Shown here piece by piece: positions 3,558 through 57,828 of a stretch of 64,000 bases of DNA. The number at the start of each line of letters is the position of its first letter. Position 1 is the stretch's first letter. Under the pieces are notes generated by a model. It had not been told where the DNA came from and searched no databases. It saw nothing but the letters and a program-made list of their open reading frames with translations. This DNA is from Clostridia bacterium (GTDB lineage: Bacteria; Bacillota; Clostridia; Oscillospirales; Acutalibacteraceae), in contig JAFQMC010000013.1 of assembly GCA_017421045.1 (NCBI GenBank), positions 27,418 to 91,417 of the forward strand. The letters run 5' to 3'. The position numbers were made by a program, and so were the translations under genes.

Positions 3558-3626
3558 ATTAATTACTCCTCTGTTAATAAATTCGGCTTTCATCCGCCGT
3601 AGGGAATGACTCTATGAAATCGGCAG

Positions 3627-25779: not shown

Positions 25780-25855
25780 ACTATATCCTTCCGACAAAAT
25801 AAGGTACATTACCAAAACAGACAGCAGAGACTTTCTGCTGTCTGTGAGTGTTGAT

Positions 25856-26455
25856 TTATTCCTGATAGTCTGCAATGCTTAAATCAGGAGATGTGTCCCC
25901 GGCATCGCCCGGATAATCTGCCTCGTCATCCTGACTTTCTTTAAAAAGCCTTCTGAGGGATAGCACCTCGTTGATGAACATCAGTGCCAGAAATCCCAGC
26001 ACTACCACAAGACCCATGGGAGTCATGAAGAAGTTGTACACAGAGCTTAGTATCGGCAACGCGCAAACCATTCTGCCTATAACCTGCTCCTCGGAAATCT
26101 CGGGGTCGGGATAGGAGTTTGCGATGCCCATAGTCTGCATATAGTAAGTGCCGTTTGACTCGTACGGCTCACGCACAATCTCGTGGGTAATGGTCTTTCC
26201 CGTATAGCTGCCGACCTCACCGTGATAGGTGATGACATCACCAAGCTTCACTGCGGTGATATCCCTGACGCTTTTTGACAGGATGATATCTCCTACCTGA
26301 AGTTTCGGCTCCATACTGGCGGAAGAAATCCGAAGTATCTGATAGCCGAAGAGCTCGGGGGTTTTTCCCTGTATTCTGGTGAATGTAAGCATTATCACCA
26401 GAGAAAAGGTTATCAATAAAATTATGGCAGATAAAATACTGTTTAGTTTTTTCAA
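25856..26455 (-). CDS. signal peptidase I, SipW/ER type (copy B)
   Basis: The start codon is TTG at 26455, with AAGGG about 10 nt upstream (199 aa). The order is N-terminal helix (residues ~7-25), LRISSASMEP with Ser47 as predicted nucleophile, GDVITYHGEV, ITHEIV with His91 as general base, then a C-terminal helix (MTPMGLVVVLGFLALMF) and an acidic tail. It is clearly related to copy A (shared FGY.(V/I).R.SS.SMEP and GD.I/V.YH/KG), a tandem duplication that has diverged. It follows the 194-aa fibre-type protein by 35 bp and should act at the membrane on SipW-type precursors. Confidence 0.9.
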   Translation of the reverse strand: MKKLNSILSAIILLITFSLVIMLTFTRIQGKTPELFGYQILRISSASMEPKLQVGDIILSKSVRDITAVKLGDVITYHGEVGSYTGKTITHEIVREPYESNGTYYMQTMGIANSYPDPEISEEQVIGRMVCALPILSSVYNFFMTPMGLVVVLGFLALMFINEVLSLRRLFKESQDDEADYPGDAGDTSPDLSIADYQE

Positions 26456-26490: not shown

Positions 26491-27075
26491 TTAGTTGTAT
26501 ACAAGATACTGTGCACCGAGAGTAATAGTTCCGTCTGTAGTATTTGCAGTATCGGGTTTTACAAACCAGTATACTTCTACGGTACCATTGTTTTCAAGAA
26601 AAATGTTGTCCTCAACGCAAACCTTATTTGCTGCATTGTTAGTGCAGGTGTATTCCTTATAGGTTTTCTCGGGACCCACAAGTCCGATATGGAACTCGTT
26701 GCCCATGTTACTGCTGAGGGTAATGCTCTGCAGATAAAGGGAAACCATAGAGTCGCCTGCGTTTGCAGTGTCTGTGATTACAGTTTTGAAGTAGGTTACT
26801 TCGCCTGCCTTTGCAGTCACTGCACCGGAGACGGCCGTTTCGCTGTAGGAAACGACTCCGTTTTCCGATGTACCTGCATAGGTGGCAACAGTTCTCTCCT
26901 CCGAGGCTGCGTTGTTGACCATACCGGTCTGCCTATATATCAGCTTGTTGCTCTCGCCGCCTGCAACTTTAGTGCGGTTATACCATGAAAACGTTGAGCC
27001 TGCCGCCATAGTCAGCACCAACGCCAGCATCACAATATAGGATATAAGTCTGAGATTGCTTCTGTCTTTTTTCAC
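26491..27075 (-). CDS. SipW-type exported protein, short TasA/CalY-like (194 aa)
   Basis: The start is GTG at 27075, preceded by AAAGGCGGTGA. The N terminus has a basic stretch, a hydrophobic segment (residues ~12-29) and STFSWY at 27-32, the position where the other proteins of this locus carry AWF or SW. This is the layout of SipW-cognate signal peptides, with cleavage expected just after it. The mature ~160 residues are predicted all-beta (VSLYLQSITLSSNMG, EFHIGLVG) and end with EVYWFVKP...ITLGAQYLV, a divergent form of the terminal W motif shared across the locus. It is the shortest member, made only of the core domain, so it could be a minor or capping subunit. Function is inferred from family resemblance and position. 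Confidence 0.75.
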   Translation of the reverse strand: MKKDRSNLRLISYIVMLALVLTMAAGSTFSWYNRTKVAGGESNKLIYRQTGMVNNAASEERTVATYAGTSENGVVSYSETAVSGAVTAKAGEVTYFKTVITDTANAGDSMVSLYLQSITLSSNMGNEFHIGLVGPEKTYKEYTCTNNAANKVCVEDNIFLENNGTVEVYWFVKPDTANTTDGTITLGAQYLVYN

Positions 27076-27093: not shown

Positions 27094-29361
27094 TTAATAT
27101 GTCGTTCTGTAGTTGTGATAACTTCCACTATATTCGAAAATAAGGTCTATCTTACCATCTTCGAAATTTTTGACATCTCCACCATACCAATCAGACGAGC
27201 TCTTAAATTTTATTCCTTCTACATCTTTCGGAAGTTCAAGAGAATAACAATAGAACTTCTGGGCTGCACCACTCCAATAAGAGTTTCCTACTGAATAGTT
27301 CTTGTTTGTATAAGTAAGATCTGAGAGATTGATTGTACCGTTGGAGCCATCCTCACACCAATAATAAACCTGAGTGACAGTACTTCTTTCCTTAAGATAG
27401 TAAATTACACCGACATTTATTTTTCTGGTAGTATCCTCAACCTTGAACTTAGCATAGAGGGTAACTGTTGCGCCGTCACTTCCGCTTACTGTGTAAGTAG
27501 TCGAAGCAGAAGAGTAGTTAGTGCCGATAGTTGTTGTGCAACCGGAGTTTGTATACCAACCTACAAACTCGTAGCCCGAAGCGGGTGTTGCTTTAAGTGT
27601 AACACTTGTGCCCGTCTGAACACTTGTGGAGGTTACACCGTTTACGGTTGCCGTACCGCCACCAGAGGGTGTTACGGAGGTCTTGACAGTCAGCACGGGA
27701 ATCTTCTCAAACTTAGCATAGTAAGTTACTGTTCCGCCTGCTGTACCTGTGACCGTTACAGTCTGTGAAGCTGTTGCGTAAGAAGAGTTTATGGTTGTTG
27801 TACATGTTGAATTCTTGTACCAACCCACAAACTTATAGCCTTCAGCGGGTGTTGCTTTAAGGGTAACACTGTCGCCTGAACGAATCTTCAAGGAAGTCTT
27901 GTTGCTCAGGTTTGCAGTAACACCGCTTACTGTAGCGGTACCACCACCTGAAGGAGTAACCGATGTTTTGAAGGTTATCATATCTGCGGGGTCAAACTCC
28001 TCCAGCTTGTTATCGGCTGTGAAGATATATGTACCGCCCAAAGTACCCTCCAGACCCTCTGCGCCTGATGCAGGGTACTGGCTTGCGCCGTTGTTGCTGA
28101 TAATTACATTGAAGTTACCGGTCTTAGGTGTTATAAACTCCAATTTGTAAAATCCTGTTGTACTGTCAAGTGTACCTGCAGTACCGGGCCAATCGCCTGT
28201 GAATTGGGTTGCAACTCCATTCACCTTCTGATAAGCATATACAGAATACGTTGAGAAGCCTGAGCGTTTTTCAACGTAGATAATAGTCTTGTTGACCTCC
28301 TGGAACTTAGCGTAGTAGCTTATGTCGTCGTCAGGAGAATGACTCAGGGTTGTTGAGTCGGTTATAAGTTCTGTACAGTCAATGTCAGAATACCAACCTA
28401 TGAATTCGTAGCTGCTGTTCTTCGGCACTGCAGTTGCAGAGAAGGATGTGCCTGTTACCTCGAAGGCTGAGGTGTGGCTTGAACCGCCCTGTGTAATTGA
28501 ACCGCCCGTGAAGCCGTTAGTAACCCTTGTGCCTGCCTTGTTGTAGGTAACAGCATTGAAGTTTGCGGTCAGGTCAGATGCAACTACTATAAGCTGAATA
28601 TCAATAGAAACACTGCATCCCTGTAGCTCCGCGGAATCCGCACCAGCATCAAGCCAGATGGAAACTTCGATATTACCTTCAGCATTTTTGTCATATTCAA
28701 AGAGTTTGTTACTCTTATCTGAGGTGTTTATATAGTTTGCAAAAGGCTTTGCTGTGAGAGTCGCGGTTGATCCACTTGTATTGGTGACAACAGTAGTTGT
28801 CTGATTGCTGCTTGCAGTAGAGAAAAAGTGACTTGTGGTACCGTTTGAAAGCATAATTCTGAACGCAGATGTATCTGCTATGGTGGAACCACTCTTTTCC
28901 GCAGTGATAGTGGGGGCTTTGCTGAAAGCCAGATAGCATTTCTTAGTCGCTTTTACGTCAAAATCAAAATTGATAAACTTTGTGCCGATGTCGTTGGTAG
29001 TTGCACTTCTGTAGGAAGAAACCGCTCCCTCTGAATCAGGCACAGGGAATGTAAAGGTCTGTCCGTTTGAGCTGTAGACAGGAGAGAAGAAAAGCGTCTG
29101 ATGCTGATTGGTGTTTTTATCATAGTCCAAAAGACTCAGCTCAGGATTTGAACTATTGGGGTTCAGTGTAACAGGACCGCGGTATGACAGCGAGTCAGCC
29201 ACGTCATTTGTTTTTACATCTCCTGTTTTCTCAGTCTGCATAGAGTAGGTAGTACCGCCCTCTATCCAGCTGTAGGTCACACCCACACCGATGAGAAAAA
29301 TAAGGATGAGTGCCACTATGGACATGATCATCTGTTTTTTACTTGTTTTATTCTGTATCAT
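27094..29361 (-). CDS. SipW-type exported protein with starch-binding-like and WY-repeat modules (755 aa)
   Basis: AGGAGG precedes the ATG at 29361. A hydrophobic segment ends in VTYSWIEGG (residues 28-35). Residues ~36-262 form the TasA-like core, with FINFDFDV, CYLAF, AFRIML and EVSIWLDAG landmarks. Residues ~268-355 carry a FIGWYSD...YYAKF repeat, and two further copies (FVGWYKN...YYAKF and FVGWYTN...LYAKF) occur at ~467-640; these resemble InlB-type/listerial repeats. Between them (~357-460) is a segment like CBM26 starch-binding modules (IIYVEKRSGFS, GDWPG, VIISNNGASQYPA). The last ~100 residues (YYLKERSTVTQVYYW) may be another carbohydrate-binding module. It is probably a fibre-tethered adhesin for starch-like polymers; the CBM assignment rests on motif resemblance only. 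Confidence 0.7.
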   Translation of the reverse strand: MIQNKTSKKQMIMSIVALILIFLIGVGVTYSWIEGGTTYSMQTEKTGDVKTNDVADSLSYRGPVTLNPNSSNPELSLLDYDKNTNQHQTLFFSPVYSSNGQTFTFPVPDSEGAVSSYRSATTNDIGTKFINFDFDVKATKKCYLAFSKAPTITAEKSGSTIADTSAFRIMLSNGTTSHFFSTASSNQTTTVVTNTSGSTATLTAKPFANYINTSDKSNKLFEYDKNAEGNIEVSIWLDAGADSAELQGCSVSIDIQLIVVASDLTANFNAVTYNKAGTRVTNGFTGGSITQGGSSHTSAFEVTGTSFSATAVPKNSSYEFIGWYSDIDCTELITDSTTLSHSPDDDISYYAKFQEVNKTIIYVEKRSGFSTYSVYAYQKVNGVATQFTGDWPGTAGTLDSTTGFYKLEFITPKTGNFNVIISNNGASQYPASGAEGLEGTLGGTYIFTADNKLEEFDPADMITFKTSVTPSGGGTATVSGVTANLSNKTSLKIRSGDSVTLKATPAEGYKFVGWYKNSTCTTTINSSYATASQTVTVTGTAGGTVTYYAKFEKIPVLTVKTSVTPSGGGTATVNGVTSTSVQTGTSVTLKATPASGYEFVGWYTNSGCTTTIGTNYSSASTTYTVSGSDGATVTLYAKFKVEDTTRKINVGVIYYLKERSTVTQVYYWCEDGSNGTINLSDLTYTNKNYSVGNSYWSGAAQKFYCYSLELPKDVEGIKFKSSSDWYGGDVKNFEDGKIDLIFEYSGSYHNYRTTY

Positions 29362-29397: not shown

Positions 29398-31230
29398 TTA
29401 GGGTGTGGGATCGTTTACGGGATAAATCAGGCTGTCGTCCGAGTCTGTATAAATATAGTGACCGTGTTCATCATCTGATTTGTACCAGAATACGGCACCA
29501 TTGAAGATATACTGATCAAAGTTATCGTCCTTTATTTCATAAGGACCGGCAAGCTTTTCCAAAGTAGTGGAGCCGTTATTAAATCTGTATACTCTGCCGA
29601 TCTTGCCCTGTGCACCGCCGGACGCAGGGTACTGATCGCCTGTATTTTTGTTATTTGCAATTATGTTAAAGTCTTGATTATGGTTGTGTGCAGAGTTTGT
29701 AAATTTAACAAAATAATTGCCCACTGTGTTATCAGCTTCATAGGTTGCCAAAGATCCCGACCAAACGCCCAACGGATATTTCTCTTCTCCGGTCTCTTTA
29801 TCGTCGAAATAAACATATGCGGCGGTGCCTGTACCATAGCCAAAGCCTTCCAGATAAACTCTGGTCTCGCCACCGTTATTGAACTGGATACCGTCAACGT
29901 TTTCGGTTTCCTTCAGGTCTATGTAGTAGAGGACACCGTTATCCGTGTTGTGAGCAAACTCCATCCCCTTGCCGGGCCATTCACCCGTTGCAGGGCAGGG
30001 ATCTCCATTTGTGTCCCATGCATAGCACATCAGATTACTGAAAGGTGCCTGCATTTCAAAGTAAATGCGGAAGGTCCCGTACTCATCCTTCCAGTAGCCG
30101 TAGCAACCGTCAAGATTTGTGCCTTCGCTCTCCGTCTGTCCGCAGATAGCAACAAACGTATGCGCGCCCTTGGGGTCGGTTTTTATATCCGTCATATCAG
30201 GCTCCCACTCGTTCCACCACTCGTCAATATCGATGGAGTAACGTCGGAAGTAGAAGTTGTTGATAGTATTGGGAACATATGCAGACCACTCTGTGCCACT
30301 AGGGCTCTTCTCCATAGCATAATATCTATGAGTCGCATTGTCGTATATGTACATCATAGTAGCATACTCTGCACTGCCATCCTCAATATTATTACCGACC
30401 CAGTGGTTCGGTTTCGCTATGTCGTCTCCTGCACGATTGTGGCAATTATCAACAAAGTTATACTTAACAAGGTCGTCAACGGTAGTTGTGAAGTCGATAT
30501 ATATACTCAGGTCAGAATTAGCAATATCATCGCCTGTGAATTCTGTGCCCTCAAGCCAGACAGAAAGAGTGATATAGAGAGTCTCTCCTTTTTCAAGCCG
30601 GAAGAGAGCGTTGTCTACATCTTCACCCTTGAAGTAATAGTCGCCGTAAGCTTCTGTTGAAGTCTCAGTGGTTGTAGCTGCGCCTGCAGTTGTAATAGTG
30701 GTGATAGGATTATACTTCATATCAACACCGGGCATCTGGTTGGGTTTGAAAACTGTAGGGGCTGTACCATCATTTTTAGAAAAAGACATTCTCAGCGCAT
30801 TCATCAGCTTCTGATTGCTGCACTGTACGATAGTACCTGCACCAAGGTAAACCTCTGCGGCGCTGTCGCCTGACTCCAATTCAAAATCTACGCTGACGTA
30901 TTTAGTGTTTTCATCAGCTGCAATTCCTTCTCTAAAGGCCATCTGAGAAGTAACACTTGATGTGTTGTCAGACAAGGGTAAGAAGAAATTTCTTCCGTCG
31001 GCACTTGAAACCTCTTCAAGGTTACATGCAGGGATAATAATGGCGTTGGTGGTTTTTCCGTCCTGGCGCATGGTCAGGTTGCTTCCGGAGCTTATGACAA
31101 TTTCGTTTCCGGTAACACTTCCCTTGTTTCCACCCTCCATCCAGCTGTAGGTAAATCCTGCAGCCAGGACTAAAACCAGAGTAAGTGCTATTACAGACAT
31201 AACCAAACGTTTATTATTAAGTTTTCTCAT
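29398..31230 (-). CDS. SipW-type exported protein with starch-binding-like C-terminal region (610 aa)
   Basis: GGGAGG lies before the ATG at 31230. The N terminus ends its hydrophobic segment in FTYSWMEGG (residues 26-34), closely matching the next gene product. Residues ~40-255 are the TasA-like core, with YVSVDFEL, VYLGAG, NALRMSFSK and LSVWLEGTE (Trp225). Residues ~280-600 contain two stretches like CBM26/starch-binding modules: aromatic-rich YFEMQAPFSNLMCYAWD with GEWPGKGM, and FNIIANNKNTGDQYPASGG. Together with the 755-aa protein it forms a pair of modular members that add glucan-binding capacity to the locus. The gene gap to the downstream gene is 36 bp. Binding specificity is inference. 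Confidence 0.7.
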   Translation of the reverse strand: MRKLNNKRLVMSVIALTLVLVLAAGFTYSWMEGGNKGSVTGNEIVISSGSNLTMRQDGKTTNAIIIPACNLEEVSSADGRNFFLPLSDNTSSVTSQMAFREGIAADENTKYVSVDFELESGDSAAEVYLGAGTIVQCSNQKLMNALRMSFSKNDGTAPTVFKPNQMPGVDMKYNPITTITTAGAATTTETSTEAYGDYYFKGEDVDNALFRLEKGETLYITLSVWLEGTEFTGDDIANSDLSIYIDFTTTVDDLVKYNFVDNCHNRAGDDIAKPNHWVGNNIEDGSAEYATMMYIYDNATHRYYAMEKSPSGTEWSAYVPNTINNFYFRRYSIDIDEWWNEWEPDMTDIKTDPKGAHTFVAICGQTESEGTNLDGCYGYWKDEYGTFRIYFEMQAPFSNLMCYAWDTNGDPCPATGEWPGKGMEFAHNTDNGVLYYIDLKETENVDGIQFNNGGETRVYLEGFGYGTGTAAYVYFDDKETGEEKYPLGVWSGSLATYEADNTVGNYFVKFTNSAHNHNQDFNIIANNKNTGDQYPASGGAQGKIGRVYRFNNGSTTLEKLAGPYEIKDDNFDQYIFNGAVFWYKSDDEHGHYIYTDSDDSLIYPVNDPTP

Positions 31231-31254: not shown

Positions 31255-32253
31255 TTAGTTGTTGATAGCGAATGTGTCAAGTACCAGTGAAAGGTTGAAC
31301 TTACCGTCTACAAGAGCGCGTCTTGCCTCGGTGTCGCAACCCTCAATCCAGATTCTGAAAGTTGTCTCGCCGTAATAGTAGCCGTTTGCATCTGCTGTGC
31401 CTGTAAGCTCTGCAAGCTTTGTGGTTGTTGCAGTGGGAACAGTTGATACTGTATCAGGCAGAGCCGTCAAAGTGTTAGTATACGTTGTCAAAGTGGTTCC
31501 GCTGTAATAGTAATGGGTTTTGGGATTGTTCCAGTAGAAGTTTGCACCTGCTGTGTAAACTGTCTTGCTGGGACCGTCAGCGTATGTAGTAGCACCTGCG
31601 TTGGTATCCATTGTGTAATCTGAAGAGCCAATCGTGTTGTTCAGGTGGAACTCGGGATTGGTTATCCATATAAACTTAGAGTTTGCGGTATTGTTATAGG
31701 AAACTCTCAGTGCACCTACAATGCAGTCCTTAGAGAAAGTATTCGCACCGGATGCATAGGAGCTGGGATTGCCACAGGTTGCACCTGTTACCACAGAAGA
31801 TGCAGGAGAAGCCTTGGAATCAGAGCTGAGATATACACTGAGCTTATCCTTGGAACGCATATGCAAAGTAAACTCGATGTAGTCCTGATTTGGAACAGCA
31901 GTTGTCCATGAACCGCCGGTGTTAACCTCTGCATAGTTTGTCTTCTGTGTAAGCTGAGGGATACGGAAGGTTGTTCCGTTGCTTGTTACCTCTACAAACT
32001 TCATAGTATCCAGAACAGATTCGTCGTCTGCGTTTTTCAAATCTGCAAGATTCAGAGAACCTGACCACGTCTCCTCGTCAAAGGAAAGCTCCAGAGCGTT
32101 GTCGGATTCCACCTGAATATCGTAAGCATCCACACGGTTATCCACCTGAGATGCAAACCACGCATACACAGACACGGTCATCAGAGCAAAGATGAGGAAC
32201 AAGTTGACGACGATTATCATTTTAGTTTTTGTTTTTCTGTTTATCTGTTTCAA
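31255..32253 (-). CDS. SipW-type exported protein, TasA/CalY-like (332 aa)
   Basis: The start is TTG at 32253 with AGGAGG 7 nt upstream. The N terminus is basic, then hydrophobic, ending in VSVYAWFASQ (AWF at 31-33), the standard SipW-cognate form. The mature part is beta-rich and shows all three landmarks of the locus: YIEFTLHMRSKDKLSVYLSSDS, GALRVSYNN and FRIWIEGCDTEARRALVDG close to the C terminus. Low-complexity Thr/Ala segments (~225-285) may be surface loops. The 12-bp gap to the 679-aa gene upstream implies coupling. Best guess is a fibre subunit related to TasA or camelysin; no peptidase motif seen. Confidence 0.8.
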   Translation of the reverse strand: MKQINRKTKTKMIIVVNLFLIFALMTVSVYAWFASQVDNRVDAYDIQVESDNALELSFDEETWSGSLNLADLKNADDESVLDTMKFVEVTSNGTTFRIPQLTQKTNYAEVNTGGSWTTAVPNQDYIEFTLHMRSKDKLSVYLSSDSKASPASSVVTGATCGNPSSYASGANTFSKDCIVGALRVSYNNTANSKFIWITNPEFHLNNTIGSSDYTMDTNAGATTYADGPSKTVYTAGANFYWNNPKTHYYYSGTTLTTYTNTLTALPDTVSTVPTATTTKLAELTGTADANGYYYGETTFRIWIEGCDTEARRALVDGKFNLSLVLDTFAINN

Positions 32254-32265
32254 CTTAATCCCTCC

Positions 32266-34305
32266 TTACTGTGATACAAAGTGAAGATTCATATCGAAAA
32301 TTCCGTCGGCAAGAGGAGTTTTTGCCTCTCTGTCGGTACCCTCCACCCATATTCTCATAACGATGTGGGCTGTGTAGTATTTGGTGGTGTCAATTTCCTC
32401 TGTTGAGGTTGTTGATGATGTTGTGTCTGACTCTGTGGCGGTAGTCGCAGATTGTGTCGACTCATCCATTGTGAGAGTTGCAATCTTGGTGCCACCGATT
32501 AGAGTGGTAGCGGCATCTGTTGATGTTGAAGTGAACAGCTTGGGAGCTGTAGCGGGTCCCAGCGATACCAACTTGTGAGAGCTGGCATCATAGTACTCAT
32601 AGGTCTGTGAATCAGATGTTAGACCTGTGTTGAGCTTGTAGCTGCTGCCCGTATATACCGTGACAACATCCTCCATTTTAAGCTCGCCTGCTTTGACCGC
32701 CTTGACGACACCGTTCTGAACAACCAGGTAGTAGTCGCCGGACTTGAGAAGCGGACCTGTGTGTTCTGAGGAATAATACAGAGAGAAAGAGGAACCGCTT
32801 GCACCAAGCGAAACCTTTCCGCTTCCAATGTTCAGATAGGTGTTTGTATTTACATTTTTGAACTTATATGTTGCGCTGTACCCTGTTCCTGTTTGCTCTG
32901 CTACGAACTGTTCTGCCTTGGTGACACTTACAGGGTGAATGTTGTTCTTGTTGCTGTCAATAAACTGAACAGCCTTCTTATAGTTTACGCCTGAAGAAAC
33001 CGCCGCAGAATCTGCAGGGTTTGCAAGTACACAGGTGGTACCGTTTTCCAGAGGATAGTATGTAACTGTTGTGGTAATATCTGTCTCCTGACCGCCAAGG
33101 CTGAAGGAACCGCCACCTGTTACTTTATATTCCAACACAACAAGCAACTTGTTTACAGGGTCATAACCTAATTTGTAGGTAATTTTAGACCCCGCTGTAA
33201 TATTACCGCTAATAATATACATCGCATTTGAACATGTTACATCGCCAATATTGTAGTTCGTATTGGTTACACCAAAATACTGACCCAAATCTGTTCTTAT
33301 CAAATTCTTACTGCTAGCACCGTCAATATAAGTATTGTAGTTATTAGCTGCAGCACTTGTGCCGGACTCATTAATAAAAATCGGAATAGAGGGATTAGTT
33401 CCGTCATATGTCGGGATATAGGTAGTAACCTCGGTTACAAAATATCTGTATTCAGAGCTGTATTCAAACTGCCGTGCTTCGAAAGAAGACAAGTTGTTTG
33501 GTGAACTTGTGACCACTGCATCATCATTGAACGTCCAGAAGTAATAGGTTTTTCCGTCATCCTCCACGCCGCCATCGATATCAGTTGTTCCTCCGCCGGA
33601 AATTGTCACATCCTCCTGTGCAGTTGTGGTTACTCTGGTATATCCTGCGTTATTCTCCACAAGCTCTATGTCCGCATTGGGTGCCCAGATGAAGCTGACA
33701 TTTTCTTTCTTTGCATCCAGGAATGCCACTCTGGATGCAGCGGCGATATAGTCCTTGGAGAAAGGACCGAAGTCGCTGATTCGTGTGTTAATATTCTTGG
33801 GAGATACGAGACTGTCGCCTGCAAGGTAAACATCTCTCTGAGAAGTACCTCTGAAATACAGGTCAATATCAATGTATCTTCCGCCACTGTTGTCATCTGT
33901 GATATTCACACCCTGCCATGCCCCGTTGCTGTCTTTAAGAACATCACCGGTTCGACGGTTAAGATACGGCTCAAAGAAGTTCAGTCCGTTGCCTGTAATG
34001 AGTTTGAGAGATTCAGGCTCGCCGTCTTTGCCGGAGATATTTTTAGCTAAACCGCGGGAACCCTTTACAACATCTGCTTCCTGAAGTGCTGTCAGGTTGT
34101 CATAGTAGTTTACACCATCCCAAGAAACCTGAACGCCATCTGCCTTGGAGCGGATGCTGATACCATTTGCGTCTGCTTTCTGTCCGATGGTAAACCATGC
34201 CCAGATAGAAAGAGCACAGACTGCAATCAGGACAACAAAAATTATTATGTTTTTAGCAATAAGTCCGCCTGTCTTTCTTTTGACAGTACTTTTATTGTCC
34301 ATCAT
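32266..34305 (-). CDS. SipW-type exported protein, TasA-like core with large insertion (679 aa)
   Basis: AAGGAG precedes two consecutive ATGs (34305 and 34302); the second has the better spacing. The signal segment ends in SIWAWFTIG (AWF at 36-38). Core landmarks are present: YIDIDLYFRGTSQRDVYLAGDS, AASRVAFLD and, at the very end, RIWVEGTDREAKTPLADG. Between them lies a ~400-residue insertion with repeated YKFKNVNTNTYLNIG and YYLVVQNG strands, resembling ricin-type trefoil or other ligand-binding beta repeats, then a Thr/Ser-rich spacer (~630-650). It therefore looks like a core subunit carrying a large displayed domain. The ligand is not identifiable. It lies 30 bp downstream of the coiled-coil gene. 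Confidence 0.75.
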   Translation of the reverse strand: MMDNKSTVKRKTGGLIAKNIIIFVVLIAVCALSIWAWFTIGQKADANGISIRSKADGVQVSWDGVNYYDNLTALQEADVVKGSRGLAKNISGKDGEPESLKLITGNGLNFFEPYLNRRTGDVLKDSNGAWQGVNITDDNSGGRYIDIDLYFRGTSQRDVYLAGDSLVSPKNINTRISDFGPFSKDYIAAASRVAFLDAKKENVSFIWAPNADIELVENNAGYTRVTTTAQEDVTISGGGTTDIDGGVEDDGKTYYFWTFNDDAVVTSSPNNLSSFEARQFEYSSEYRYFVTEVTTYIPTYDGTNPSIPIFINESGTSAAANNYNTYIDGASSKNLIRTDLGQYFGVTNTNYNIGDVTCSNAMYIISGNITAGSKITYKLGYDPVNKLLVVLEYKVTGGGSFSLGGQETDITTTVTYYPLENGTTCVLANPADSAAVSSGVNYKKAVQFIDSNKNNIHPVSVTKAEQFVAEQTGTGYSATYKFKNVNTNTYLNIGSGKVSLGASGSSFSLYYSSEHTGPLLKSGDYYLVVQNGVVKAVKAGELKMEDVVTVYTGSSYKLNTGLTSDSQTYEYYDASSHKLVSLGPATAPKLFTSTSTDAATTLIGGTKIATLTMDESTQSATTATESDTTSSTTSTEEIDTTKYYTAHIVMRIWVEGTDREAKTPLADGIFDMNLHFVSQ

Positions 34306-34335: not shown

Positions 34336-36612
34336 TCAGTTGTCTATATCAGCCAGTTCTTCTTCTGTGAAGAGGTTCTTTCTTGCCTTTTTCTTGGCAA
34401 GACGAACTTCTTCCTTTGCTTTTTGTTTTGTGAGTCGTACTTCTTCTTTAAGCTTGCGTCTGAGCTCGGCGATCTGCTTCTCCTGCAGAGCCTTCAGCTC
34501 GCGAACCTTAGCATTGTAGCGTTTTTCTTCGTCTTTTCTGGCAGCCTCAACACGCTTATCCACAGACTTCTGAACCTTTCTGATTTCAGAAGCGTGCTTG
34601 GCGTCAACTGCCGCTGCAGCATCAGCATTGGACTTTTTGACTGCGGCAAGCTGGCTGTCAAACTCAGCCTGCTTCTCTGCCAGGTCTTTGATTCTCCTCT
34701 GCTCTGCCTTGCTGGTTTTCTCTGCAAAGTCCTCGTTGAGCTTTGCAACATAGGTTGTATGTTTTGCCTCTGCATCGGCGATTGTATTCTTGAGTGCCTT
34801 GACCTCGCCTGCATGCTTTTCGGCAGTCTGCTGTGTCTTCAGAGCAAAGTCATCGTTCATCTCACGAACTGTGTTCTGATGCTCCTGAGTCATCTTGTCA
34901 ACTGTATCCTTATGCTCCTGAGTCATCTTCTGTACAGTGTCATGATGCTCCTGAGTCATACGCTCAACAGTTGCTTTGTGCTCCTCACGCTCCGACTTGA
35001 GGGTGGTGGTGAGTATCTCGTTCTTCTCTGTGAGAACGGTAATCTGCTGAGTTTTCTCAGCGATTTCAGCTTCGCACTTCTGCACATGCTCAGTGAGAGC
35101 TGTGATCTTTGCAAGCTGTTCGGCAACCTGCTTTTCAAGCTCAGCAATACGAGCTGCCTGAGTTGCAATTATTGCCTGCTGCTCTGCTATGAGCGCCTTC
35201 TGCTTAGCATTTTCTTCCTCAAGCTCAGCGATGCGGGCTTTGAGGGTTTCAACCAATTTATTAAGCTCATCAATTCTGTTGTTAAGCTCAACGATAGTCT
35301 GTTTGAGCTGGGCAATCTCAGCCTTGAGAGCAGCATTCTCTTCTTTGAGTCTTTCGATTTCTTTCTCGGCTTCGAGGAGTTTGATTTTGGTCTCTTGAAG
35401 CTCTTGTTTCAGCTCGGCAATTTCGTCCTGAAGTGCAGACACCTGACCCTTCAGGGTGAGAATCTGCTGTTCCTTCTGGTCGAGAGTAACCTTCAGGTTC
35501 TTGACTTCGTTGGTAAGATCGAGGATTTTCTTCTCGCGCTCGCGGATTTCTTTGAGGCGGATTTCCATTTCCTCTTTTCTTACTTCGTCAATTCTTGCCT
35601 GCATTGCAGCCGCCTTGAGCTTTTCGGGCTTGGCGTTTTCCTCTGCAATCTTTATATTTTCTTCTTCGTATTTTTCGTGGAGGATTCGCCTCAAACCGGG
35701 GTTTGTGGCAAGGGTCATAAGGAAGTGCTGGAAGCCCATGGAGAAATAAACCTCCTGCTGAACTTCTTCGCTCATCTCGCCGGAGAACTCCTCACCGACG
35801 ATTTCAAATCCGGGACGCTTGTAGCTGTCCAGGAAGTTCCACAGCTCCATGGCCTTTTTGAAGTTGGGGTTCTTCTTCAGGAGGTTGGTCTGTGTGATAG
35901 GCGGATGAACCTCGGGCTCCTTGGAGATTTCTCTCATGAGCTGAGTCTGAAGGAACTCGTTGAGAGTGGTTCTGATTCGTCTGATTCGGTCGAAATCTGA
36001 AAGCTCGGAAACATCCAGAACATCCAGATCATCAGCCAGAGTCTCATGGGATTCGTTTATATAGTTGAACGCAAAGTCAACTACCTTGTCGTCAAGCTCT
36101 GCATGACGGATAACTTTGATATTGTTGTAGCTGTCGTTGGGAACACCCTTCATTTTTGAATACTTATCCTCAACAAAATGCAGTGCTCTGCGAATAAGTG
36201 TCATAAGCACTCGGTTTTCGTAGATAGCGAAGGACTCTTCCTGCTCGGTAACCAGAATCTTGTTGGGGGTGACCATATCGCCCTCAACCTTGGCGATATA
36301 GTTTGTGTGCTGAGAAAGGTGCTTTACGGAGTCGGGACCTGTCTTTCTGGCAAGCTCGATTCTTACAACATTCTCAATCTGCTTGATGAAACGTCTCTGC
36401 TCATCAATAGCCTTCTGAATGTAGGGGAGTGCCTCCTCAATAGCCTCAACCCAGTCCATATCAATGACTTTCTCGTTGGTTTTACCGGTGAGAGAGTCCT
36501 TGCCCATGTCACCATCTTTGAGGCTTGCAGTTATGTAATTGTAAGTAAAGTCATTTTGCAGAAGCTCCTGCATATACATGTAAGCTCTGTAATATTTACC
36601 AAAGTCTGCCAT
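34336..36612 (-). CDS. DUF2357-like N-terminal domain fused to a long coiled coil (758 aa)
   Basis: There is no signal peptide, so the protein is cytoplasmic. Residues ~1-310 resemble DUF2357, the partner domain usually encoded beside McrB-type AAA+ GTPases: TNYIAKVEGDMVTPNKILV, then FAIYENRVLMTLIRR (130-141), and TQTNLLKKNPNFKKAMELW (241-258). From ~315 to ~700 it is almost pure heptad coiled coil, including four 11-residue repeats around 544-584 built on TV..MTQEH. The C terminus (700-750) is very basic and ends NLFTEEELADIDN. No PD-(D/E)XK nuclease motif was found. The start ATG has GAGGAG ~12 nt upstream. It follows the McrB-like ATPase gene by 86 bp, so the two probably form an NTP-driven complex, here placed inside an export/fibre locus. 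The DUF2357 call is tentative. Confidence 0.6.
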   Translation of the reverse strand: MADFGKYYRAYMYMQELLQNDFTYNYITASLKDGDMGKDSLTGKTNEKVIDMDWVEAIEEALPYIQKAIDEQRRFIKQIENVVRIELARKTGPDSVKHLSQHTNYIAKVEGDMVTPNKILVTEQEESFAIYENRVLMTLIRRALHFVEDKYSKMKGVPNDSYNNIKVIRHAELDDKVVDFAFNYINESHETLADDLDVLDVSELSDFDRIRRIRTTLNEFLQTQLMREISKEPEVHPPITQTNLLKKNPNFKKAMELWNFLDSYKRPGFEIVGEEFSGEMSEEVQQEVYFSMGFQHFLMTLATNPGLRRILHEKYEEENIKIAEENAKPEKLKAAAMQARIDEVRKEEMEIRLKEIREREKKILDLTNEVKNLKVTLDQKEQQILTLKGQVSALQDEIAELKQELQETKIKLLEAEKEIERLKEENAALKAEIAQLKQTIVELNNRIDELNKLVETLKARIAELEEENAKQKALIAEQQAIIATQAARIAELEKQVAEQLAKITALTEHVQKCEAEIAEKTQQITVLTEKNEILTTTLKSEREEHKATVERMTQEHHDTVQKMTQEHKDTVDKMTQEHQNTVREMNDDFALKTQQTAEKHAGEVKALKNTIADAEAKHTTYVAKLNEDFAEKTSKAEQRRIKDLAEKQAEFDSQLAAVKKSNADAAAAVDAKHASEIRKVQKSVDKRVEAARKDEEKRYNAKVRELKALQEKQIAELRRKLKEEVRLTKQKAKEEVRLAKKKARKNLFTEEELADIDN

Positions 36613-36664
36613 GAGTACTGTACTCCTCGCTAATTGTTATTATCCCTGCAACAAAAGACCAGTT

Positions 36665-36689
36665 TAAGGGCGAACGCCGTTCGCCCTTA
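36665..36689 (-). other. intercistronic hairpin between the ATPase and coiled-coil genes
   Basis: A perfect 11-bp stem TAAGGGCGAAC / GTTCGCCCTTA closes a 3-nt loop. No T-run follows on the minus strand, so it is probably a processing or stabilising element rather than a terminator. Confidence 0.5.
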
Positions 36690-36698
36690 TTACGCTGA

Positions 36699-38237
36699 TT
36701 ATACAAGCTTCTTGAGCATACGCAGATAACTCTTGCATTCGCCCATGTTCTCTTCGCCGAAGAGCTCATCGATATAAGCGCACAAACCGTCGATTTCGTC
36801 ACGGATGTAGGAAAGGTTCAGGGATTCGAACTTTCTGAAGACCTTTCTTGCCAGGACGTAGTCAAGACCGTCAATCTCAGAACCGCCACAACCTACATAT
36901 GCAGGAACGAAGTCGCGGAGCTGCTTAACAATACGGTTACCGAAAGCGATACGGAAATGCTCGATAACGTAGTCGTCAAGGAGGTTGATCTTCTTGATAT
37001 TCTCTTCTGAAACAACGTTGTTTGCTTTTGCAACATCCAGAAGCTGTTCAAAGTATTTATAGTTGATGTTAATAGACTCTGTGAAAGGTGCATCGAAGGG
37101 TACGCCCTTGGTGTCGATGTTGATGGGCATAGCACGGTCGTAAACCTTATCTGTGATAGCAAATGTAGAGTCGTCGTTGTTAGCGGTACCGATGTACCAC
37201 ATATTGCCGGGAATCTGAATCTGACCGTTGACGATGTGCTTGGGGTCGGACTTCCAAGCATTGGGAACAACGTCAACTATCCACTCCTCGCGGGAGGGCA
37301 TTTCAAGGATGGAGAGCATCTCTGCGAAGTAATACTCAACACGGGCGATGTTCATCTCGTCCAGGATTACGGGGTAGATGTTCTCGTTGTAGGAAGCTTC
37401 GTACATAGCACGGAGAAGCTCTGTCTCGTTGAATTTCTTTGTGAATTCGTTGAAGTAACCGAACAGCTCACTTCTGTCACGCCAGGAAGGCTGAACAGAT
37501 GCAATGATTGCGGGGTTGTTGATAAACTTACCGAATGCATAGGGAAGTGAAGTTTTACCTGTACCGGAAATACCCTGTAAGATGATAAGTCTTGTAGATG
37601 CAAAGGATGCAATAAACAGACGAATAATCTTGATATCATAGTAAAGACCCAGCTGTGAGCATGCGAACAGACGGAAGCGGTCGCAGAACTCGGGAAGGGT
37701 GATTGTGTTGTCGTATACGGGAGGCTGATAATCTGCCCAGAGCTCGTCGATTTCTGCAAGCTTGTAGAATCTCTTGTCGCCCTGTGCCTCTTCTTCGCCC
37801 TGCTGATTGAGGGTCTCCAGCTCCTCGCCGGTGAGCTCTGAAATCTCGTTGGGGTTGAGACCAATCTGAGAAACCTTCATGGAGAGGATCTTATCCTTCT
37901 CGAGGTTGAGTCTCATAACCTCTTTATTGAGAGCCTGAACTTCCTTAACAAGGGAGTCGGTATCCTTTCTTCTGCGATGAGAACGGATAAACTTTTTTAC
38001 GGCGACGATGATGAGCCACACGATGAGTGCAAGAACCGCAACAAGCAGTATAATAGCAAGACAAGCAATAGCCCATGCAAGACCGCCAAGCTCGGTTGTG
38101 TAACCGTAAATGATGTTGACATATGCAGGAATATTGAAAGCCTCTCCTATTCCGATAAATGCTCCGGCTATAATTGACCAGATTGAGCCAAAAAACTGAC
38201 CGAGAAACTCAAATAAGAATTTAAATACTGTATCCAC
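36699..38237 (-). CDS. membrane-anchored McrB-like AAA+ ATPase/GTPase (512 aa)
   Basis: The start is GTG at 38237 with AAGGAG about 10 nt upstream. Two N-terminal hydrophobic segments (~5-45 and ~53-80) are followed by a basic cluster (KKFIRSHRRRK) and a short coiled coil (~95-125), so the ATPase faces the cytoplasm. The AAA+ core is complete: Walker A GISGTGKTS (222-230), Walker B ILDEMNIARVEYYF (291-304), sensor 1 GTANNDDST (350-358) and a DRAM arginine-finger region (367-370). The LDEMN.ARVEYYF form is that of the McrB/MoxR-like family, whose McrB members usually hydrolyse GTP. No DNA-recognition domain is present. With the DUF2357-like coiled-coil protein it forms an McrB/McrC-like pair, but membrane-bound and inside a SipW-type locus. 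A role in export, assembly, or defence is open. Confidence 0.85.
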   Translation of the reverse strand: MDTVFKFLFEFLGQFFGSIWSIIAGAFIGIGEAFNIPAYVNIIYGYTTELGGLAWAIACLAIILLVAVLALIVWLIIVAVKKFIRSHRRRKDTDSLVKEVQALNKEVMRLNLEKDKILSMKVSQIGLNPNEISELTGEELETLNQQGEEEAQGDKRFYKLAEIDELWADYQPPVYDNTITLPEFCDRFRLFACSQLGLYYDIKIIRLFIASFASTRLIILQGISGTGKTSLPYAFGKFINNPAIIASVQPSWRDRSELFGYFNEFTKKFNETELLRAMYEASYNENIYPVILDEMNIARVEYYFAEMLSILEMPSREEWIVDVVPNAWKSDPKHIVNGQIQIPGNMWYIGTANNDDSTFAITDKVYDRAMPINIDTKGVPFDAPFTESININYKYFEQLLDVAKANNVVSEENIKKINLLDDYVIEHFRIAFGNRIVKQLRDFVPAYVGCGGSEIDGLDYVLARKVFRKFESLNLSYIRDEIDGLCAYIDELFGEENMGECKSYLRMLKKLV

Positions 38238-38509
38238 GGTACTTCGTCTCCTTAAAAAAATCTACCTGTTCATAACATCCGTGTAATTAAACATCCTCTG
38301 TTATGTTTTAATAAGCTGTGCTTACTCAGGATGACAGCTTGCACCCTATGAAAAGTGATGGAGCTACATCGTAAACGAACGATATAAAGCACCCACACCT
38401 GAACCAAGTAACTTATATTTCTTTTCCGCCGATTGGCGGAAAAGAAATATGACCGTTACTTTTAAGCACCCCTGTGCTTTTAGGGACAAATTAATTTGTT
38501 TTGTAAGCT
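38238..38509. other. 272-bp structured intergenic region with a 16-bp perfect hairpin
   Basis: A perfect 16-bp inverted repeat (38415-38430 with 38435-38450, loop GATT) lies between the third signal peptidase and the ATPase gene. Nearby are AAGCAC/GTGCTT (38465-38480) and ATCGT/ACGAT palindromes (~38370-38386). Neither strand shows a proper T-run after the long stem. It may be a mobile repeat, an RNA processing site or a protein-binding site that divides the locus. I see no convincing promoter. Confidence 0.5.
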
Positions 38510-39238
38510 TTATTCTTCAGCCTGGGAAGTGTTGTCCTGTGCAGGTGTTTGTACACAGTCCTCATTTCCTTCATTCGGCTTTTGTCCGATTGATGCGAGG
38601 TACTCCTCGATAGCCTTTTTCTTCTGCTCTTCGGTGAGTTCAGCATTCTGAACCGCCGCCTGAGCTTCTTCAAGGGCCTTTTCTTTGTTATAGGCTACAA
38701 TGTTCATGATAACACGAATAGCCTCGTAGACAAAGAAGATAATCATCGGAAGCAGAACACAGAGGAAAAATCCCAGCTGAGTTCTGATAAAGTCTATAAC
38801 TTTGCCCACGCCTGATATTTTCTTGCCTGTCCATTTGGCAACGATTGTTGAAGAAGTCTGAAGCTCCTCGTCAGGCTTGGACTCGTTGTCTCCCTGTGTT
38901 CTGTAATAGGAGATGTTTTCATCCTCAATTACTTCTACAATTCTATGGGTGTTGTAGGTCTGTGTAGCGCCTATTTTAATGGGGAAAGTGACAACGTCAC
39001 CCACCTGATATTCATAGTCGCCATCATTTGTGACCTTACCGAAAATCAGGTCATCTTCATAGAAGGTGTCCTCCATGGAATCAGATTGAACAGTGAGGGG
39101 AGCAATTCCGAAAAGGTGAGAGACCCCTTGAGACTTAGAAGTAAGTGACAGCATCACTACAAGTATTGACACTATCAGAATCAATACAATTATTATATCA
39201 ACGATTGTATTCAGTACTTTCTTAAACGTCTTTTTCAT
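38510..39238 (-). CDS. signal peptidase I, Ser-His type (copy C, divergent)
   Basis: The ATG at 39238 follows GGTGGAG (242 aa). The order is N-terminal helix (~10-33), LTVQSDSMEDTF with Ser54 as predicted nucleophile, GDVVTFPI, TYNTHRIVEV with His98 as base, a C-terminal helix (~155-180) and a ~55-residue charged helical tail. It belongs to the same Ser-His class as copies A and B but is clearly more distant (QSDSM rather than SS.SM, and THR rather than THE), so it may have different substrates. It lies 49 bp downstream of the likely major subunit gene, the classic arrangement of a dedicated peptidase next to its substrate. Confidence 0.88.
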   Translation of the reverse strand: MKKTFKKVLNTIVDIIIVLILIVSILVVMLSLTSKSQGVSHLFGIAPLTVQSDSMEDTFYEDDLIFGKVTNDGDYEYQVGDVVTFPIKIGATQTYNTHRIVEVIEDENISYYRTQGDNESKPDEELQTSSTIVAKWTGKKISGVGKVIDFIRTQLGFFLCVLLPMIIFFVYEAIRVIMNIVAYNKEKALEEAQAAVQNAELTEEQKKKAIEEYLASIGQKPNEGNEDCVQTPAQDNTSQAEE

Positions 39239-40304: not shown

Positions 40305-41129
40305 TTAGTTGAATACACCTGCTCCGAACTTCTTCTGGTCGTTCTCGTCATCGCGAACGCTGAAGAGCATTCTCATACGGACATGACCGCCACGGATATC
40401 ATCGATGCACTCAGGGTCGTTGCCCTCTGCCCAGATTACGATTGTGTACTTGTCAATCTGGTCAACCTCGAAGCCCTCGGTGGAGGTTGTCATAACCTTC
40501 TCGTCGGTTTCGAACATTGTGCAGTCGGTCTCGGCGATTTCACGGTTAGTGTAGGAGGCTTTGCCGTAGATGGCAGGCTCGCCGTTTTTGTATACCATAA
40601 CGCGGACCGCTTCATCTGCTGACTTTGCAACACCCGTGATTTCAAGGTATGCGTCGTAGTCAAGAGTAACCTGTCCGTTGTTCTTACAATAGAAGGTGTA
40701 TGCCACGTAGTTTTCGCCGTTGTGGGAGCCGTTCTCGCTTGTGTCAAGGTCGGTGGGAAGCCAAGAATATGTAATGTTGGTGACGTCTGTGACCTGCTGT
40801 GCCGAGAGGGATGCGCCGAAAGTTTCAAACTCGGGGTCCTCGCTGATTACGATACCCTTCTTAACTGCAGGGGAATCGACGCTGATAATAAGGTCGCCCC
40901 ACTGGGTTACAAGCATAGAAACCAGGAACAGAATCAGAAGAATAATCAGGCAGACACCGAGGATAATGCTCAGAATCTTTTTGCGTTTCTTGTACTTGAC
41001 AATTTCTGCAGAGTCAGCAGAGACGTGAAAATGTTCTATCTGAGCGTCCGCAATTTTTTTGTCGTTATATCGACTGAGCTCCTCCGGAGTCATAGGCTGT
41101 TCAATTTTGGTTTTCTTTTTTCCAAACAA
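40305..41129 (-). CDS. single-pass membrane protein with TasA-like extracellular domain (274 aa)
   Basis: A TTG at 41129 has GGAG 8 nt upstream, better than the in-frame GTG at 41138, which overlaps that GGAG. About 52 charged cytoplasmic residues precede a transmembrane helix (ILSIILGVCLIILLILFLVSML). Unlike its neighbours it has no AWF-type cleavage motif, so it probably stays anchored. The outer domain ends with the locus motif IVIWAEGNDPECIDDIRGG and also carries AVRVMVYKN, so it has the same core fold as the exported subunits. A membrane-tethered paralogue next to soluble ones suggests an anchor or nucleator of the fibre, comparable in role to accessory anchors in other fibre systems. 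That role is inferred. Confidence 0.75.
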   Translation of the reverse strand: MFGKKKTKIEQPMTPEELSRYNDKKIADAQIEHFHVSADSAEIVKYKKRKKILSIILGVCLIILLILFLVSMLVTQWGDLIISVDSPAVKKGIVISEDPEFETFGASLSAQQVTDVTNITYSWLPTDLDTSENGSHNGENYVAYTFYCKNNGQVTLDYDAYLEITGVAKSADEAVRVMVYKNGEPAIYGKASYTNREIAETDCTMFETDEKVMTTSTEGFEVDQIDKYTIVIWAEGNDPECIDDIRGGHVRMRMLFSVRDDENDQKKFGAGVFN

Positions 41130-41183
41130 GTTAATCACTCCGTAGGTTAGTTTTAGTCCTTTTTATCAGGTGTAGTCCTTCAA

Positions 41184-41996
41184 TTAAGAAATGGGAACGT
41201 TGTTATCGTCGCATCCTATGAATCCGAGCTGAACTGCCAGATGTGCATCCTGAACGTCGTCATCACACTGGGGGTCTTCTCCATCAACCCAGAGTCTGAT
41301 TGTAACCTTGGTGGGTTCCATTCCGTTGAGGTGGAAGAGTCGGGTGCTGTTTGAGTATCTCATTGTGCCTGAGGGCAGGTCAAAGGTCGTCTGACCGCTG
41401 ACGGGAGTGCCCTTGTTGGGTTCATATATGGCAGAGCCGTGGCTGTCTGCGTCAAAACCTACTCTTGTACAGTTGACTACATCCGCCTTGGCACCTGTTG
41501 ATGTGGTAGAAACCTTCGTGCCGTCGTCATTACCTGCTTCGGTGCTCTCGGTAGTGAGATGCACCCACATGTCCTCGGTTGCAATGAAGAAACACTCAAA
41601 CTCAAGATACGAGCGGTCGTTGGGTTCTCTTACCGAGCCACGCTGGTTGGTAAACTGTCTACCCTGAGTAGTTGTAACAGGGTCGAGCATAATCTCCTCT
41701 ATGCTTGTGTTATATTTGCCGAGATAGCCGTCTATCATCTCGTTGGTAATAACCTTTGTATACTTATCAAGGTCTGTGCCATAATCTTCCATTCCAACCT
41801 TCAGCTGTGCACTGACGCTGATGTGCATATCAAGGCTGTCTACACCTGAGAAGGTGTTGACCTTAAACCAAGCATAAGTTGAAGTTGCCATTGAAAGAAG
41901 TGTGAGAATAGCAACGATAACTATTACTCTTTTGCGCTTTTTGCGGGGAACTTTTTCGTCGATCATCTCATCAACCTGTCTGTTGAAAAAGCCCAT
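41184..41996 (-). CDS. SipW-type exported protein, TasA/CalY-like (270 aa); first gene of the locus
   Basis: AAGGAG lies ~9 nt before the ATG at 41996. The N terminus has an acidic then very basic cytoplasmic stretch (PRKKRKR), a hydrophobic segment and ATSTYAWFKVN (AWF at 42-44). The mature domain shows YLEFECFFIATEDMWVHLTTES, NCTRVGFDA and VTIRLWVDGEDPQCDD near the C terminus, the same landmarks as the rest of the locus and especially close to the membrane-anchored protein downstream. It is the promoter-proximal gene, 54 bp before the next one. Probably a fibre subunit or an assembly factor. Confidence 0.8.
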   Translation of the reverse strand: MGFFNRQVDEMIDEKVPRKKRKRVIVIVAILTLLSMATSTYAWFKVNTFSGVDSLDMHISVSAQLKVGMEDYGTDLDKYTKVITNEMIDGYLGKYNTSIEEIMLDPVTTTQGRQFTNQRGSVREPNDRSYLEFECFFIATEDMWVHLTTESTEAGNDDGTKVSTTSTGAKADVVNCTRVGFDADSHGSAIYEPNKGTPVSGQTTFDLPSGTMRYSNSTRLFHLNGMEPTKVTIRLWVDGEDPQCDDDVQDAHLAVQLGFIGCDDNNVPIS

Positions 41997-47566: not shown

Positions 47567-47599
47567 AATAACAACTCCTTTGCGTTTATTTACAATTAA

Positions 47600-47628
47600 A
47601 ATATAGCATACCCGAGACAGCATTTCAA
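47600..47628 (-). promoter_or_regulatory. sigma-A promoter of the 45257-47566 dockerin gene
   Basis: The minus strand reads TTGAAA, 17 nt, TATATT, ~35 nt before the start codon. It is divergent from the sugar-importer promoter. Confidence 0.7.
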
Positions 47629-57599: not shown

Positions 57600-57625
57600 G
57601 TGAAAAAATAAATAGGATAATGGAA

Positions 57626-57801: not shown

Positions 57802-57828
57802 TTTTCAGGTTTAACACAACTTTGGTGT

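Follow-up and report, generated by a model that had tools for sequence, protein, structure and literature searches.

The gene cluster around the AAA+/DUF2357 pair

We analysed a stretch of 64,000 nucleotides from a Clostridia bacterium (assembly GCA_017421045.1, contig JAFQMC010000013.1, positions 27,418 to 91,417), referred to here as the window; all coordinates are those of the window. The subject of the analysis was a pair of adjacent genes, encoding a McrB-type AAA+ protein (AAA) and a protein with a DUF2357 head followed by a likely coiled coil (the partner). Both open reading frames (ORFs) are real and intact. They lie within a run of 13 genes on one strand, read from 41996 to 25129. Two of the gaps measure 237 and 272 bp, and all others are between -20 and 86 bp. 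The order is m270, m277, m259, a signal peptidase, AAA, the partner, four large exported proteins, a small exported protein and two signal-peptidase-like genes. In total, the cluster holds three signal-peptidase-like genes and eight signal-anchored proteins. In order of transcription the genes are as follows.

41184..41996 (-): m270, exported protein with a TYAWF motif and a W-V-D-G-E-D-P-Q-C end, first gene of the cluster (sequence; homologues)
40305..41138 (-): m277, membrane protein with a cytoplasmic tail, one transmembrane (TM) segment and an exported domain ending W-x-E-G-x-D-P-E-C; frequent companion of AAA
39288..40067 (-): m259, exported protein with a TFAWF-type signal anchor (sequence motif)
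38510..39238 (-): signal peptidase I, archaeal/SipW type, 242 amino acids (aa); TIGR02228, 66.7 bits (cut-off 51.85)
36699..38237 (-): AAA, membrane-anchored McrB-type AAA+ nucleoside triphosphatase (NTPase), 512 aa
34336..36612 (-): partner, DUF2357 (McrC N-terminal-like) head at about 1-310 and likely coiled coil at about 330-758, 758 aa; nuclease domain not found
32266..34305 (-): exported protein of 679 aa, IWAWF motif, W-V-E-G-T-D end (sequence)
31255..32253 (-): exported protein of 332 aa, VYAWF motif (sequence motif)
29398..31230 (-): exported protein of 610 aa, TYSWM motif, starch-binding CBM26 (PF16738, E = 9.7e-10, above cut-off)
27094..29361 (-): exported protein of 755 aa, TYSWI motif, CBM26 and InlB-type repeats (PF16738, PF18998 and PF09479 above cut-off)
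26491..27075 (-): exported protein of 194 aa, TFSWY motif (sequence motif)
25856..26455 (-): second signal-peptidase-like gene, 199 aa (PF10502, E = 9.3e-4, below cut-off; resembles the first signal peptidase)
25129..25875 (-): third signal-peptidase-like gene, 248 aa (PF10502, E = 9.7e-4, below cut-off; resembles the first signal peptidase)

The SipW model NF046067 also matched the first signal peptidase (E = 7.7e-29), but its 100.6 bits are below the cut-off of 190. Among the long exported proteins of near relatives, CBM26 was found in 9 of 26 and InlB-type repeats in 8 of 26.

The AAA+ protein is a membrane-anchored member of the McrB family

The AAA gene starts with a GTG codon, which is preceded by an AGGAG-type site. 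The protein has a hydrophobic N-terminus, a TM segment at about residues 51-85, a short coil at about 95-120 (by eye) and an NxD-type AAA core from about residue 176. A first-pass annotation made from the sequence alone had claimed Walker A, Walker B and sensor 1 motifs of McrB form. All were present as GISGTGKTS, VILDEMNIA and GTANNDDST, together with a DKVYDRA motif, and they proved to be near-invariant. In 122 aligned rows of the AAA group (duplicates included), GISGTGKTS and GT(A/I)NNDDST were each kept in 120 and DKVYDRA in 121, and LDEMN forms were found in at least 106 (among the six commonest forms listed). Sensor 1 read N-N-D-D in 120 rows and N-I-D-D in one, with a gap in one. NxD was also present in most control McrB-like rows and hence does not separate AAA from CoCoNuT-like genes. 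A profile of 22 AAA sequences matched E. coli McrB in the PDB (E = 1.2e-7). Identity of the window protein to the 21 other aligned members was 42-88%, reaching at most 93% among relatives, and chance is thereby excluded as the source of the ORF.

Membrane anchoring was assessed by hydropathy only. Two N-terminal helices had been proposed. One of them was confirmed as a strong TM segment near residues 51-85, where the Kyte-Doolittle mean over 19 residues reaches 3.4; the other amounts to a region of weaker hydrophobicity in roughly the first 35 residues (mean up to 1.53). A TM segment within the first 200 residues was found in 110 of 110 distinct AAAs, compared with 0 of 18 canonical-type rows. 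The 110 include the window and omit L044, in which the AAA ORF was masked by an antisense ORF. Homology of the TM/coil region to FtsB-type proteins was weak: FtsL_Actino matched with E = 0.0037, and Pfam FtsL matched 3 of 22 members (best 0.04).

The partner carries a DUF2357 head and no detectable nuclease

The partner had been described as a DUF2357-like head followed by about 400 residues of coiled coil, and both parts held up. PF09823 (DUF2357) matched 9 of 24 members of the partner family at E <= 0.1 (best 5.2e-14). The window partner itself gave no PF09823 match in the Pfam scan. When scanned singly, the partners of L186 and L065 showed DUF2357 above the curated cut-off. A profile of the head matched the partners of three of four CoCoNuT-like or related plasmid loci (1e-34, 1.6e-25 and 5.6e-17), and in this respect the kinship of the pair to CoCoNuT systems was supported. 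The partner of the fourth plasmid locus, L200, was missed although it is annotated as DUF2357. The head profile matched nothing in the PDB and did not detect E. coli McrC.

Conservation was analysed in 39 heads, including those of the plasmid loci L196-L198. L99, P116, Y131, E132, N133, T242, N243 and L257 were common to all 39. W54, E59 and R209 are found in every one of the 36 membrane-type heads, and the heads of L196-L198 have none of them. R134, within Y-E-N-[R/K], was R in 33, K in 5 and I in 1 of the 39 heads. In McrBC, the DUF2357 protein is described as docking on the hexamer, where a conserved Arg/Lys acts on the sensor aspartate (PMC11090510). By analogy, the Y-E-N-[R/K] motif is a candidate for this residue.

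The window partner contains 429 residues without proline (330-758), with the strongest heptad bias at 365-448. The partners vary in length between about 360 and 994 aa, and 24 of 100 had 420 aa or fewer, one being a 141-aa fragment; a long coil is therefore optional. In 8 of 12 partners inspected (L050, L095, L096, L097, L098, L099, L100 and L101), a globular stretch of about 130 residues follows the coil at the C-terminus; it is absent from the window partner.

No nuclease family was matched by the window partner in Pfam or NCBIfam scans, nor by the partners of L186, L065 and L069 scanned singly, and no D...(D/E)xK set was found among the invariant residues of 36 heads. For the scan of 24 partners, the reading covers 25 of the 87 families matched. 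The reported lack of a nuclease motif is in agreement with these scans, and no hidden PD-(D/E)XK domain was found in the loci sampled. The scans were extended to 17 window genes at 23.9-47.6 kb, small ORFs left out (Pfam; NCBIfam for 10 of them), and returned no nuclease family except the YqgF-like domain of Tex. As a positive control, the DUF2357 protein of L074 was recognized both as DUF2357 (2.8e-68) and as PDDEXK_7 (1.1e-51).

The pair is linked to signal peptidases and exported proteins

We collected 121 loci with an AAA of the window type, of which 110 were distinct and 86 of these had flanks of 3 kb or more on each side. Near kin are favoured in the sample, since its 80 named loci are the best 80 of at least 568 confirmed relatives. 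ORF calling was mechanical, and some partners were masked by antisense ORFs until it was repeated in six frames. In the 86 well-flanked loci, a signal peptidase was found within 3 kb of AAA in 85 and within 4 kb in all, always on the AAA strand. The DUF2357 gene was never more than 2.5 kb from AAA, and in 83 of the 86 loci the distance was at most 500 bp. Whether the pair always co-occurs with SipW-type genes in other genomes had been raised as a check; in these 86 loci it was accompanied by a signal peptidase each time. As a control, 25 other McrB-like loci of the class sample were used. Of these, 17 were well-flanked, comprising 12 of canonical type and 5 of the membrane-anchored groups B and C, and none contained a signal peptidase matching the same profile (0/17).

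Signal anchors of the A-W-F type, a pattern chosen after inspection of the exported proteins of the window, were counted in 113 of 564 genes of 42 group-A loci, with at least one in 36 of the 42. In the controls, the counts were 0 of 69 genes in group B (5 loci), 1 of 17 in group C (1 locus) and 2 of 246 in group D (20 loci; weaker McrB-like matches from the class sample). Protein ends of the form W-x-E-G...D..C were found 66 times in the 42 group-A loci and not at all in 26 other loci. A pair occurring mainly with restriction genes, like a hidden nuclease domain, would have counted against a link to export; neither was encountered in the loci sampled.

m277 is a third, apparently uncleaved companion

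The residue before W is A or S in the A-W-F proteins, whereas in m277 other residues are found at this place, often Q, K, T or R. Since m277 lacks A/S here, we infer that it stays anchored as an apparently uncleaved membrane protein. In the class sample, 26 of 391 genomes matched m277 at E <= 0.001, 14 of them strongly (E < 1e-50), and AAA was present in all 14. In one of these 14, G221, the m277 match has 11 internal stops and lies 37 kb from AAA. Conversely, nearly all AAA-bearing genomes sampled from the class also have m277. Eleven of the 12 weak matches covered the TM part only or mainly, and the other (G303) was a fragment in a genome with AAA. Among 59 relatives, 33 matched m277, 32 of them strongly, and AAA was found in 28 of the 32. 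In the other four (G005, G011, G024 and G025), the contig ends before the expected place of AAA. Searched against the PDB, the m277 profile gave matches to membrane helices and to a designed repeat protein, and no stretch passed alone.

Upstream of AAA, the Bacilli-type locus L186 has two genes of about 310 and 350 aa (L186:7969-9999), and such genes lie in like places in L172, L173, L182, L187 and L189. These neighbours are alike in size, and the two of L186 had no Pfam match.

Kinship, distribution and mobility

In a tree of 57 AAA cores, built by a short search and with several long branches, the membrane-anchored groups A, B and C came together with an SH-aLRT (Shimodaira-Hasegawa-like approximate likelihood ratio test) support of 99; group A had 96 and group B 89. 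In one sister group, a single DUF2357 gene lies between two genes for membrane-anchored AAAs, with genes for membrane proteins after them, and a SipW-type signal peptidase was not found there (L064:7497-12450, L065:8249-12222, L066:7741-12011, L067:7531-12103 and L068:7543-12008). In L066, a membrane protein of 1341 aa of this group has a transglutaminase core (PF01841, 2.9e-21), and ribosomal-protein genes adjoin the locus in L066-L068 (by eye). Genome G398 carries both the window-type AAA group and this double-AAA group. A third membrane-anchored AAA lies at L069:7009-11334 with a distant DUF2357-like partner (head profile 1e-11); a SipW-type signal peptidase was not found, and the A-W-F pattern is matched by one gene there.

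Metagenome-assembled genomes labelled Ruminococcus or Oscillospiraceae, several from ruminant guts, are the nearest relatives that bear a name; the dockerin domain encoded upstream of the cluster is in keeping with an organism of this sort. The AAA gene was found in 24 of 35 other genomes of its genus, many of them incomplete. In the class sample, 46 genomes matched AAA; 15 carry the window type, as does G158, in which the copy is cut by a contig end. The G158 locus (L088) was counted among the control loci, and the AAA copy of G408 is split over two contigs. In the phylum sample of 398 genomes, full-length AAA was present in the window genome only, and 43 others matched the core.

AAA also matched 258 plasmid and 2 phage records, none of which covers 80% of the query, and no relative of either protein was confirmed in scans of viral contigs. 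Plasmid relatives with 31.6-37.3% identity lie in operons with VWA, PP2C phosphatase or kinase genes. The operons L196-L198 look like Type III CoCoNuTs, a label we assigned from the published description. The PADLOC candidate PDC-M26A matched AAA with 3.2e-36 (best stretch 196-319).

Comparison with known systems

The CoCoPALM clade is named in one paragraph of Bell et al. 2024 in eLife, where its treatment is deferred and no mechanism is given (PMC11090510). As described in that paragraph, it comprises a GTPase fused to an FtsB-homologous TM segment and coiled coil, and the McrB domains of CoCoPALM and CoCoNuT systems have an NxD signature, usually followed by D or E (PMC11090510). The window pair shares with this description the NxD-type McrB domain behind a TM segment and coil, the coiled-coil DUF2357 partner and the signal-peptidase neighbours. 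On sequence features it fits CoCoPALM as a member, the FtsB homology being only weak. Beyond what the paragraph describes are the m277 companion, the head-only Bacilli-type partners, the CBM26 cargo and linkage counts with controls. Neither this name nor m277 figured in the first-pass annotation. In literature searches, the name led to that paper and its preprint, and searches by name and components found no functional study of CoCoPALM-type systems among the matches listed. The kind is thus already named in print and, within these searches, its function is unstudied.

CoCoNuT systems share the NxD AAA, DUF2357 and the coiled coil. The AAA profile matched L196-L198 at 7e-79 or better and the head profile at 5.6e-17 or better. 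They differ in that a HEPN or other nuclease is described as always close by where McrC lacks one (PMC11090510), and none was found in the 17 window genes scanned. Furthermore, hydropathy shows no TM segment in the CoCoNuT-like AAAs of L196-L198; in the AAA of L200 the N-terminus is hydrophobic (2.39). In canonical McrBC (E. coli mcrBC, L201) the AAA core was detected at 2.6e-12. McrC, however, carries a nuclease according to the same source (PMC11090510), and it is the protein that the head profile misses.

A dedicated SipW-type signal peptidase beside its exported proteins is also found in the SipW-TasA and sipW-bsaA systems. The C. perfringens sipW-bsaABCRSD operon exports BsaA, and recombinant BsaA polymerises in E. 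coli (PMC7395162). In contrast to the window, the operon as described there has no AAA/DUF2357 pair, and the exported proteins of the window match no TasA-family model well. PcdA of S. aureus is reported to be a McrB-family protein co-opted to place division, and so moved from restriction to a task at the cell envelope; it differs in having EVE domains and in working with FtsZ and DivIVA (PMC10602043).

A proposed membrane machine serving surface proteins

The steady pairing with export genes suggests service at the cell surface rather than DNA cutting, and the pair is probably dedicated to the surface-protein system and not to restriction. As the best overall explanation we propose, with a probability of roughly 0.6, a CoCoPALM-type membrane machine that is driven by nucleoside triphosphate (NTP) and serves a SipW-type surface-protein system. 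That the pair is specifically an assembly or export motor is possible, at somewhat less than even odds. Of the functions offered by the first-pass annotation, a motor or scaffold for the fibre system was the better one. It needs correction in that the AAA protein is membrane-anchored and not simply cytoplasmic, and in that a fibre is presupposed.

In this model, the N-terminal helix would tether a McrB-type AAA+ ring to the membrane on its cytoplasmic side, and the DUF2357 partner, in which no nuclease was detected, would engage the ring. By analogy with McrBC, the head would dock on the ring and stimulate NTP hydrolysis; McrB itself uses GTP. The target of the ring might be the m277 tail in the cytoplasm, or the tails of further signal-anchored subunits. 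A force or conformational signal might then cross the membrane and lead to the presentation, assembly or anchoring of exported subunits at a single site. The coiled coil, which about a quarter of the partners lack, could cluster the machines or set their position. AAA in the membrane, a membrane subunit that is apparently not cleaved and exported subunits that can be cleaved are often found together, and an NTP-driven assembly or presentation step at the site of export is the simplest reading of this. Judging from the operon descriptions cited above, SipW export and polymerisation are possible without the pair, and the machine would hence add control, anchoring or order rather than bare export. 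More tentatively still, a Type IV restriction motor may have become an NTP-driven platform, anchored in the membrane, on which SipW-type surface fibres are assembled. In that case m277 would span the membrane and link the ring to the exported subunits, and starch-binding proteins would be displayed in Ruminococcus.

Several results weigh against this explanation. Of 58 distinct loci flanked by 8 kb on each side, 12 gave no m277. Three of the 12 (L043, L044 and L053, the last from genome G221) have an m277 match 14-37 kb away on the same contig. Eight of the remaining nine are of Bacilli type; their partners consist of the head only, and they have conserved neighbours of about 310 and 350 aa. 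The C. perfringens operon, as described without the pair, indicates that AAA is not needed for SipW export as such. Only 1 of 25 exported proteins matched TasA/camelysin models, and weakly (TIGR04088, E = 0.033); the cargo proteins had no TasA-type support in Pfam, and their profile gave only E >= 0.055 against the PDB. Since they match no TasA-family model well, a fibre nature is at most a possibility. The sister groups B and C have a membrane-anchored AAA and DUF2357 without a SipW-type neighbour. Because group-A loci supplied the sequences for the signal-peptidase profile, ordinary signal peptidases in the controls could have escaped it. The McrC-like control protein of L077 showed neither DUF2357 nor a nuclease in Pfam, so that the nuclease search works but can miss. 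Finally, a PADLOC scan of the neighbours (E <= 1e-10) gave 14 families for 123 neighbours in 24 loci and, in the controls, 24 families for 114 neighbours in 15 loci, none in more than two loci in either set. Several of the control matches were system-specific (PDC-S11, REase_II) and fewer of those in group A were, but with these small numbers the scan does not discriminate.

Extraction of misplaced precursors and a positioning scaffold may be considered as alternatives to the assembly or presentation step. Some other membrane AAA proteins extract proteins from the membrane, and here the ring might pull misplaced or unprocessed signal-anchored subunits out of it instead of building fibres. A membrane-anchored ring protein beside many signal-anchored proteins and an apparently uncleaved one would suit such quality control. 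Yet no protease domain was found in the pair, and the regular presence of m277 and of a partner dedicated to AAA points to a specific client; this alternative appears unlikely. A spatial scaffold, in which the anchor and the long coiled coil place the export site and NTP hydrolysis serves only scaffold assembly, appears somewhat less likely again. The proline-free 429 residues of the window partner speak for it, as does the co-option of PcdA for placing division (PMC10602043). It is at odds with the partners that lack a long coil and with NTPase motifs that are near-invariant.

An anti-phage system at the membrane, similar to Type IV restriction and kept beside surface genes, perhaps as a guard against phages that use surface proteins, is the least probable of the three. 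The nearest named relatives are indeed the CoCoNuT and McrBC defence systems, AAA matches PDC-M26A, and the plasmid relatives lie in CoCoNuT Type III-like operons. On the other hand, the window partner, the three others scanned and the neighbours showed no nuclease (the Tex domain aside), the pair is tied to signal peptidases, and neither full coverage in plasmid or phage records (0/258 and 0/2 at 80% of AAA) nor a viral relative was found. A restriction system, or a defence island captured inside the export locus as had been suggested, was rejected, given that no nuclease was found in the genes scanned and no full-length mobile copy among the matching plasmid and phage records, and that all 86 well-flanked distinct loci have a signal peptidase no farther than 4 kb away.

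If a surface-serving machine is correct, a restriction-type NTPase has been turned into cell-surface machinery, and an energy-using step has been added to an export route whose best-studied members assemble after cleavage without a motor. The CBM26 cargo ties the system to starch binding in gut Ruminococcus. Tight linkage, m277 and the head-only partners make the question of function testable with a handful of genes.

Other features of the window

Two structured elements were detected in and after the cluster.

38413..38452: inverted repeat of 16 Watson-Crick pairs, or 18 when G-T pairs are counted, located in the 272 bp that separate the signal-peptidase and AAA genes
25071-25045 (-): terminator-like hairpin after the third signal-peptidase-like gene (hairpin scan)

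A repeat of at least 14 pairs was found upstream of AAA in 6 of 23 loci (window included), several with matched changes in both arms. Within the cluster, promoter-like sites numbered 26 against a shuffle mean of 26.0, and terminator-like sites 24 against a mean of 15.5 (standard deviation 4.2).

Outside the cluster, tex is split into two ORFs at 42994-45141 (N-terminal part 44041-45141, C-terminal part 42994-44031), and a dockerin protein lies at 45257-47623 (PF00404, 6e-9). Dockerin-like C-termini were seen by eye in the proteins at 1596-3593 and 3627-5414. Downstream of the cluster, on the same strand, are two giant secreted-looking proteins of 2297 and 3657 aa (5940-12833 and 12916-23889), each with a C-terminal hydrophobic stretch by eye. 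A cobalamin riboswitch was found at 57613-57813 (RF00174, 75.4 bits).

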